NCBI RefSeq assembly: GCF_964019385.1 | Contig: NC_088650.1 | Location: forward strand, 23,001,248-23,065,247 | DNA length: 64,000 bases | Direction of reading: 5' to 3' | From: Sycon ciliatum | Lineage: Eukaryota > Porifera > Calcarea > Leucosolenida > Sycettidae | Shown here: positions 15,214 to 30,109 of the stretch, one piece after another | Position numbering within the stretch: the first letter of the stretch is position 1 | How the letters are laid out: every line of letters begins with the position of its first letter | Notes under the pieces: generated by a model | Told to the model about the DNA's origin: nothing | What the model saw: only the letters and a program-made list of their open reading frames with translations | The model's database searches: none | Program-made: the position numbers and the translations under genes

Positions 15214-18200
15214 TCACACGGCAGAAGATCACCATCAGCAGCAGCAGCGGGGTCGGCGTCAGCCATGTTTCCCGTGGCAACCATTGTCCCGGTGGCATTG
15301 CACGTGCACAGCTGGCAGTCTTCCGTTGTGGCGTTGCCGTAGAAACCGGGCACGCACTGGTCGCAGGAGTAGCCGGTGGTGTTGTGCTCGCAGTCCATGC
15401 ACTCTCCCGTGGTGGCGTTGCAGCTGCTGCTGTAACCATTGCACGAGCAGTTCACACACAGTACCGTTGGACCACCGGCGAACGTCTCGCGACGGTAGCC
15501 CTCCGCACAGTTCTCACACTGCGACCCTGGAGGACATCACAGGAAAGCACAGGCAACAGCTTGTTGCTTCACTATCAACGCAATCACAAAGCTGACAAGA
15601 ACGGGCCAATAGTAAAAAGTCAATTGTTTGAATCTAAGACAAACACAGACATACTCGTGATGTTTCTCTCCACGAAAGAGCACACCGTACTCCGAATAGA
15701 ACTTTCATCGGAAAATGACTGAAATCCGGTCATAGGAATTGACGCAAGCAGGCTCTTCCTGCCATTTTTTCACATGCGTTCTTTTTATGAGTACCACACC
15801 CTCACCCTTCTACAACACATCAGTTTTCTGGACCAGCGAAGTCCAAACGTACAGCATAAGATCCTCAATGGACCTGGCACAGGTCTGCAATCACATACAA
15901 GGACTGGAGATCAACACTTCGACCAGGGAGAGGGGGGGGGGCACAGGGTGATTGAATGTTGTAAAACTACCATACCTGTATACTCCGGTGGGCAAACACA
16001 CGTCTCCATCCACGGCACACCTATGTCTTTAAGACCAGCTCGGTAGACTGCTGTTGTTGCCACTACGCCGCGTAGTGTAGCTATGGCCCGGCCGATACCA
16101 AAGCTTGCGTACGCCGTGCGAATGGCTATGCTCTCGACATTGCGAAGGTGAGTCTGGAACTCTGTTGCGGACATGGCTGGCGACCAATGTCGAGCAATTA
16201 TCGGTACTTTGTACGTTTGAGACTGACGCTGAGGAGCGGGATCAAGTCTGAATGTGAGCTGAAACAAACAATTGGACAGGGAAGCTTGATGAATTTGGAT
16301 TCTCCGTGTAATATGCACAGAGAGAGAGATGGTGCTGCCAGAAATGTTCTAAAGAGAACAGCTGGCCAGTGGTTGAATGTATCCGCTAAGAGAATGATGT
16401 TTTTCTCATCTCATAGTGATGTCAGCTAGCTCCTTATGTCCACAGTCATACCAACACATACACAGTGATATTGCATGTTATGTGCGTACACTCTCACGCA
16501 TGTACACACGCACACATGCACACCCGTACACCCCCCCCCCCCCCACGCCCGCACAAACACGCACACACACCCCACATCCACCCACACGCTCACATGCACA
16601 GCGCATGCCCACTTCTACCGATGTCTGCTTGCAGTCTTGGACGCACACCCGCCACGACTTACCATTACATCATCGTTGGTACGGATAATGACATCATCCC
16701 CGGTAGCCGGCACAGCAATGGGGTTACCATGTGCTTCAATGGCAAGACTGAACTCCAATGCCAGGCCGTACATAGAGAGTAGATCACCACTGAGCAATGA
16801 CGGTGGCAGCTTAATGAACACATCGCTGGTGATGTCGCCCTGAAAGATCTCAATGTACCCATCGCCAACGGAGTAGGAGCTGTTGGTGTCCGCATGGCCA
16901 TCCGCCGACACTATCTCAATGGGACTGGTGCCAGGATCTAGTTCCCTGCCAAGTTCCAATTCACTGCCACTGCCAATGCCATTGTCAATGCCACTGCCAA
17001 AGGCATTGCCAATTCCATTACCAAACCCGCTACCAATGCCGCTGACCACAGGGTGCCTGTAGACGAAGAAGCTTTGCTCTCTCTGCAGATGGTGGACCAG
17101 AGTGCGCACAGGCCATGCATTAGCAACACACTTGCATCTCCTCCACACACCACTCACTTCACACAGCAGCACTACCCATGTTCCTGTATACGTGATGCAC
17201 GGTATGTTCCACTTATGAGCAAACTAGCCGTCAAAAAAGACTCAAAAGCATACCTACAAGCAGATTGGTGGCCGGCTATTGAGCTCAAAAGGGGATATTT
17301 TGATGGTATAACTAAAAAAATTCACGGTTCGCGTGAGACTCGGCTGGAGGCCGAGTTTTGCGCATCCGCAGGTATGCCACCACCCTCAAGGATCAATGCG
17401 CAGATGCAGCTCCTAAAGTGGTATAGTAGCTAGGATGAGCATAATGCCAAGTATCATAAACGGCTTGGCCATCAGATGGAAATGAAAGAAATTATGCTAG
17501 TGCTGTTGCTACTGCTACTGCTGCCGCGGCCACCGCTGTGACCAATTCAACTACTCTTCTGTTACTTTCGGTGTTTTCTTTTTTCTTTTTCTTTTTTTGA
17601 GCCGGGCAGGAGGTCACTGACAAAAAAACATTTTTCTTCTGTCTTCGGCAGTTGCTGGATGTGAGCCCCCACCCCACGGTTCTGCCGCAAGGTTGGCACC
17701 ACAAAAACTATCCCACCGCCCTGGCCGAAGTGCTACCCTCACCCCCACCATCGAAAAAGTAAAAAAAATTGGGCTTGTCCGGGATTTGAACCCGGGACCT
17801 CTCGCATCCGAAGCGAGAATCATACCCCTAGACCAACAAGCCGGTGTCTATCTGCAGAGGATATCCTGGTTCACAGATCTAGCACTGATAATCAATACAT
17901 GGATGAAGTATGTACAAGGGCAGTGCTGCCCAATGAAATCTGATCGCATGAGTAAAGTTTGCGCCTTGCACCCGTGAAAATCCTAATATTGGGCCATACA
18001 TGCTCTCAGCACCTCCAATTACTTCGAATATATTATTTCATATGCTTTGCATTCCTCCAGAGTCTATGTGAGCTGTGGCCAGCGAAAACCAGCACTTGTG
18101 TACTTGATATTAATCATCAAAATGTGACGTCAAAGTTTGGGACGCACAGTGAGCTGGCTTTTGAAGATTCTTTTTCGATCGAGTGGGTTTCTTTGTTGTC

Positions 18201-30109: not shown

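Follow-up and report, generated by a model that had tools for sequence, protein, structure and literature searches.

Laminins are the building proteins of the sheets under tissues, and two of their insert domains, LF and L4, are usually found in different chains. A gene of the calcareous sponge Sycon ciliatum, located in a stretch of 64,000 nucleotides (hereafter the window), appears to encode both, which raises the question of what kind of chain it specifies. A laminin chain with both inserts, whose ends resemble gamma and whose LF resembles beta, is real and well supported; the gene is probably that of a chimeric beta/gamma laminin, seen here in its 5′ part, with the C-terminus past an assembly gap.

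Three-frame reading and joining delivered the 5′ part of the gene on the minus strand (30109-15214) as 11 exons. Their borders were picked by eye for matching phase, and, given that choice, all ten introns carry a GT donor and an AG acceptor. The joined frame is stop-free over 1377 codons. An initial annotation had proposed the limits 30109 and 15214 and a 22494/17082 border, all of which agree with our own model, the latter being the border of exons 8 and 9. The encoded order is signal peptide, LN, LE1-4, a truncated LE5, LF, LE6-9, an LE10 interrupted by L4, then LE11 and the first part of LE12:

29029..30109, minus strand: exon 1, signal-peptide-like start (judged by eye), LN (30007-29198), and LE1 (29197-29033)
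27560..27751, minus strand: exon 2, LE2 with eight cysteines
26803..26955, minus strand: exon 3, LE3 with eight cysteines
25631..26265, minus strand: exon 4, LE4, truncated LE5 with six cysteines (26104-26012), and the first part of LF from 26011
24510..24792, minus strand: exon 5, remainder of LF with IDSVLLIP and the C-x16-C pair
23736..23909, minus strand: exon 6, LE6
23163..23463, minus strand: exon 7, LE7 and LE8
22494..22701, minus strand: exon 8, LE9 and the first part of the split LE10
16663..17082, minus strand: exon 9, first half of L4, weakly conserved, with a Gly-rich low-complexity stretch
15976..16348, minus strand: exon 10, remainder of L4, followed by CVCPPEYTG, at which LE10 continues
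15214..15526, minus strand: exon 11, remainder of LE10, LE11, and the start of LE12, running into the gap
15014..15213, no strand: assembly gap of 200 N that cuts the laminin gene

Five Pfam families score over cut-off in the window product, including Laminin_N (2.8e-56), EGF_laminin (9.1e-69, nine stretches), and EGF_LMN_ATRN (2.7e-18), and their domain limits give an LN followed by an LE array. Each of the nine complete LE contains eight cysteines; LE5 has six, and LE10 has three and five on the two sides of L4. With an LE profile made from the nine window LE and five LE of two sister loci, eight LE-bearing reading frames were found across the window, every one of them minus-strand and within 15.2-30.1 kb; two additional matches (E 0.79 and 0.87) do not rise above chance.

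The intron between exons 8 and 9 is 5.4 kb long and contains repeated reading frames, as might be expected if two neighbouring genes or a misassembly had been taken as one gene. This is extremely improbable against the phase, which is 0 on both sides of the intron, and against a second locus (at 3.69 Mb on contig C5, see below), which apparently has a like order. Moreover, the halves of LE10 are complementary (three cysteines before L4, five after), from which we infer at the genomic level that both sides of the intron belong to one gene. The joining of LF and L4 in one chain, as claimed in the initial annotation, is thus borne out by the open exon chain and by Pfam matches to LAMININ_IV_B and Laminin_B over cut-off.

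Repeats were observed at several places in the window. Within the intron between exons 8 and 9, three plus-strand copies of a nearly identical reading frame (17600-19400) form a repeated element. A 23-bp tandem repeat is present in 27 copies with 98% matches at 44521-45151. Degenerate repeats of 6/8/14 bp fill the region 52300-64000 (about 11.7 kb); they are of the GCTCTGGC type up to about 60626 and of the reverse complement CCAGAGC type thereafter, forming a giant inverted array with an AT skew of opposite sign on its two sides.

The LF comprises 221 residues (26011-24511) and follows the six-cysteine LE5. In the initial annotation it had been placed at 24119-25900, which is corrected here, and the IDSVLLIP motif given for its end is present, with late cysteines spaced C-x16-C, not C-x13-C. 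Profile support, on which the LF had been made to depend, is provided by the LAMININ_IV_B match (2.3e-8, 34.2 bits vs a cut-off of 27) and by a full-length match of LE5-LF-LE6 to the laminin beta2 chain 5lf2_A (3.8e-28). The LAMB1, LAMA5, and LAMC1 sequences used for comparison here and below are model-supplied versions, not database entries. Against LAMB1 the LF region scores 71.8 bits in a single collinear stretch, against LAMA5 41.6 bits in three pieces. Since the LF core, stripped of the flanking LE, gives a weak 12.6 bits with LAMB1, the LF call rests on Pfam, the flanked 5lf2 match, and the signature residues. Judged from its sequence, the LF is of the short collinear beta kind, unlike the long alpha5 insert.

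Besides the truncated LE5, the signature includes an E-G-E, the C-x16-C pair, and the Asp within IDSVLLIP. The structural passages of PMC5338690 describe a beta2 LE5 without the 7-8 disulphide and a beta2 LF with calcium ligated by the side chains of two Glu and one Asp, as well as one disulphide (Cys752-Cys768) in the helical region. The spacing leads us to think that the E-x-E and D of the window LF are located at the putative beta2 calcium-binding places. Both Glu of the E-G-E align with LAMB1; in the 5lf2 alignment only the first is aligned, the second Glu of 5lf2 lying in a two-residue gap. A single-sequence structure prediction of the exon 4 piece had a mean pLDDT of 44.2 and was set aside. 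A genome search with PF21199 returned 0 places from 4 candidates and is uninformative on the absence of LF, because it failed to recover even the window LF, whose coding sequence is divided between two exons.

The L4 matches Laminin_B at 3.9e-7 (30.5 bits vs a cut-off of 22.4) over 66 residues, which belong to its second half only. By Pfam and cysteine counts it sits within the split LE10 of the same chain as the LF, and the proposed split LE around L4 with further LE behind it was found as such (three plus five cysteines, CVCPPEYTG, LE11, and the start of LE12). The first half of L4 is poorly conserved, and a tandem repeat at 16946-17048 codes for the Gly-rich stretch of exon 9. In the region that begins with the second L4 half and extends to LE11, the best stretch scores 90 bits with LAMC1 vs 66 bits (71 in all) with LAMA5. 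The best PDB chain for L4-LE is perlecan (4.7e-22), which is aligned across L4-LE as well, and no gamma1 row of the PDB search matches L4. Integrin binding by RGD is attributed to the alpha5 L4 in the laminin passages of a review (PMC11260871); RGD is absent from the 1377-codon window translation. Among the 2 candidates of a genome search with PF00052, just the window L4 was recovered; as this search missed a diverged L4-like stretch at the C5 locus, we do not claim that the window L4 is the sole one in the genome.

The order up to the LF fits the beta-chain N-terminal plan named in the initial annotation, which the LN sequence does not. Compared by local BLAST with eight LN references whose letters came from the PDB, the window LN scored 232 bits with gamma1, 201 with netrin-1, 175 with unc-6, 164 with alpha5, 149 with alpha1, and 142 with beta1, and gamma1 was also the top phmmer match in the PDB. 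The LN trees that had been suggested as a check do not settle its placement. A 13-row tree has long branches; in an 8-row tree the window LN is grouped with gamma1, netrin-1, and unc-6 at 72/83, and AU tests on this tree just reject a placement with beta and netrin-4 (p 0.049) and leave standing those with alpha (p 0.315) and with gamma1 alone (p 0.313).

The genome (538 Mb, 313 contigs) contains many divergent LN genes, with at least 14 LN loci (15 places). In an exon-by-exon screen, which partly covers LN pieces, the window LN is the sole one of 14 loci with gamma1 as its best row. At 3.7 Mb on C14, the LN scores are low and almost tied (unc-6 82, gamma1 81), the two C4 copies are close (netrin-1 119 and 115, gamma1 112 each), and the LN at 17.4 Mb on C5 has no reference row above 45 bits. 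The window LN is 23% identical, over 192 positions, to the initial LN exon of the 3.69 Mb gene on C5.

Human LAMA5 has four LE between its first insert and L4 and about ten LE before that insert. The four-LE spacing recurs in the window chain, which could be explained if the gene encoded an alpha chain built like alpha3/alpha5, its long first insert being replaced by a short LF. The domain descriptions in PMC5338690 give alpha3 and alpha5 a first insert with weak homology to LF and a second insert that is an L4. The AU test is compatible with an alpha-type LN, and the C-terminus past the gap may hold G domains. We nevertheless regard an alpha chain as quite unlikely: LN and L4-LE11 score higher with gamma1, the 221-residue LF is collinear with beta, five LE units instead of about ten precede it, and no G domain was seen by eye at the C5 locus. 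The gamma1-best LN and L4-LE11 and the short beta-like LF likewise disfavour the alpha chain with a diverged IVb domain that had been offered as an alternative.

What follows exon 11, which is open and stops mid-LE12 at the gap, bears on the same question. Gaps of 200 N are a common scaffolder default, so the 3′ sequence lost here may be short or long. Left of the gap, RING-H2-like frames below Pfam cut-offs occur on the plus strand (14525-15013), the last of which enters the gap from the left, and minus-strand frames at 6000-7500 match Helicase_C (6.4e-11 with three joined frames, 2.5e-7 with one) and presumably belong to a DDX1-like DEAD-box gene. The LE profile found no LE left of the gap within the window, where the RING-like and helicase frames are located instead, as would suit a short-arm-only protein (netrin-like or a truncated laminin) that ends within the gap. 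As the gap may have any length and exon 11 is open in mid-LE12, such an early end is very unlikely.

A search for the C-terminus with LAMC1 gave at least 145 matches (150 of 235 candidates scored); among the matches listed, those on the window's contig (C9) were three in the window gene and one at 12867432-12867710. The latter is an LE-like match (E 1.8e-7) about 10 Mb left of the gap. When the joined tail of the C5 gene served as genome query, none of the 13 matches was on C9.

The C5 gene at 3.69 Mb seems to have the domain order of the window chain. It was read from reading frames, mostly unspliced, the last two exons joining in phase:

C5 3677788: truncated LE5, then YYFPDFDWLRIEMED
C5 3675052: TITGPVTVDSV
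C5 3672689, 3672071, 3671282, and 3669265: four LE-type stretches
C5 3667999: split LE
C5 3665610: L4-like DIFYNAGAGEFLGD
C5 3663572: CACPAAYMG, then more LE
C5 about 3649614: last exon, ending ...LSLRCPA-stop, after exons of coiled-coil-like composition

The joined LF pieces of this gene did not match LAMININ_IV_B, even with E allowed up to 0.1, and its L4 scores 12.7 bits in Pfam (under the cut-off of 22.4) and 34.8 bits with a profile of our own from the window, LAMC1, and LAMA5. For the joined tail piece, both Laminin_I (E 0.0064) and the better PLU-1 (1.1e-4) are below cut-off. Inspection by eye down to 3643001, beyond which comes a Tudor frame, showed no frame resembling a G domain. A related tail exon (39% identity) is present at 3.82 Mb; the pair of related laminin genes at C5 3.64-3.69 Mb and C5 3.82 Mb is separated by about 150 kb.

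The chimeric beta/gamma reading is drawn from the open exon chain, the Pfam domains, the likeness of the LF to beta2 5lf2 and LAMB1, and the best matches of LN and L4-LE11 with gamma1. To these are added published chimeric chains and the C5 locus, with its seemingly same order, Cys-ended C-terminus, and lack of a G domain by eye. The C5 locus is weak support, and our confidence in the chimeric reading is lowered because its joined LF pieces have no LAMININ_IV_B match.

Other loci in the genome are related to the window gene to varying extents. At 68.1 Mb on C1 and at 3.7 Mb on C14 (interrupted by N), the sequence reads as LN-LE1-5-LF and more LE, with no L4 in the stretches covered and with LF under the Pfam cut-off of 27 (14.4 and 22.8 bits, respectively); a locus at 19.3 Mb on C8 nearly duplicates the 5′ end of the C1 locus. 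Two near-identical copies of LN-LE followed by a Cys-rich part are located at 38.58 and 38.65 Mb on C4, the first adjoined by a frame that looks G-domain-like by eye. On C2, the interval 29.06-29.39 Mb has open frames, 673 to 2295 residues long, in which many LE-like matches follow one another, and collagen IV-type C4 domains occur at 9 places in the genome. A genome search for COX1, made for its mitochondrial code, gave 0 places.

As a chimeric beta/gamma laminin, the chain would be secreted, might join partner chains via a coiled coil that the C5 locus suggests to lie beyond the gap, and may polymerise at its tip through the gamma-like LN. LF and L4 would project sideways from a continuous LE rod, as described for LF in the beta2 structure (PMC5338690), in the passages of which neither domain is assigned a function.

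The initial annotation had also considered an ancestral architecture. Accordingly arranged, the ancestral short arm would be LN, LE1-4, a truncated LE5, LF, four LE, and a split LE with L4, from which gamma would have lost the LE5-LF-LE6-9 block and beta the L4, while alpha3/alpha5 would have kept LF, four LE, and L4 with an enlarged first insert. The best hint of such an ancestry may be the four-LE spacing from LF to L4 shared by the window chain, apparently the C5 gene, and LAMA5. The missing LF profile match at the C5 locus makes it less likely, and we hold this origin as a tentative and rather doubtful option. If true, the order was retained in two chains of this animal with different LN domains, and the sole LN gene here with a gamma1-best match still carries LF. 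Exon-level coordinates are now available for a beta/gamma chimeric chain, along with an indication that another locus of this genome is ordered alike. The order of LF and L4 loss thereby becomes testable, which bears on the origin of the alpha, beta, and gamma chains of basement membranes.

Among canonical chains, gamma1 shares with the window chain the best LN match, the best L4-LE11 match of those compared, and an L4 inside a split LE. In gamma1, however, L4 is placed after LE4 and the LF and the LE5-LF-LE6-9 block are missing, whereas LF and LE6-9 intervene in the window chain. The beta1 and beta2 chains share the order LN-LE1-4-LE5(truncated)-LF-LE6 and the LF sequence, but they lack L4 and their LN scores lower with the window LN; LF is the only insert of a canonical beta chain, and the window chain has L4 in addition. 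The alpha3 and alpha5 chains also have an LF-like insert and, later in the chain, an L4; they differ by an alpha-type LN, G domains, and a first insert of about 580 residues according to PMC5338690, compared with 221 in the window.

The notion that the window chain stands apart from known chains does not hold in view of these alpha chains (PMC5338690) and of the beta/gamma chimeras of the glass sponge Oopsacas (PMC10280926). The laminin passage of the latter reports two chimeric beta/gamma chains, "as in A. queenslandica", and refers to Fahey and Degnan 2012 and to Whittaker 2006; a passage of PMC4582122 instead gives sponges including A. queenslandica orthologues of alpha, beta, and gamma. 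The laminin passages of PMC6744579, PMC5395295, PMC12549020, PMC5968619, PMC11260871, PMC10381214, and PMC11200632 do not describe such a chain. The Oopsacas passage itself gives no domains, and we read "chimeric" there as LF plus L4. The likeness, which is one of description and not of domain order, lies in the beta/gamma character and in the number of chains, with two in Oopsacas and one clear and one apparent in this genome. In our reading, hybrid beta/gamma chains have thus already been reported in sponges, and the window chain would be a further example.
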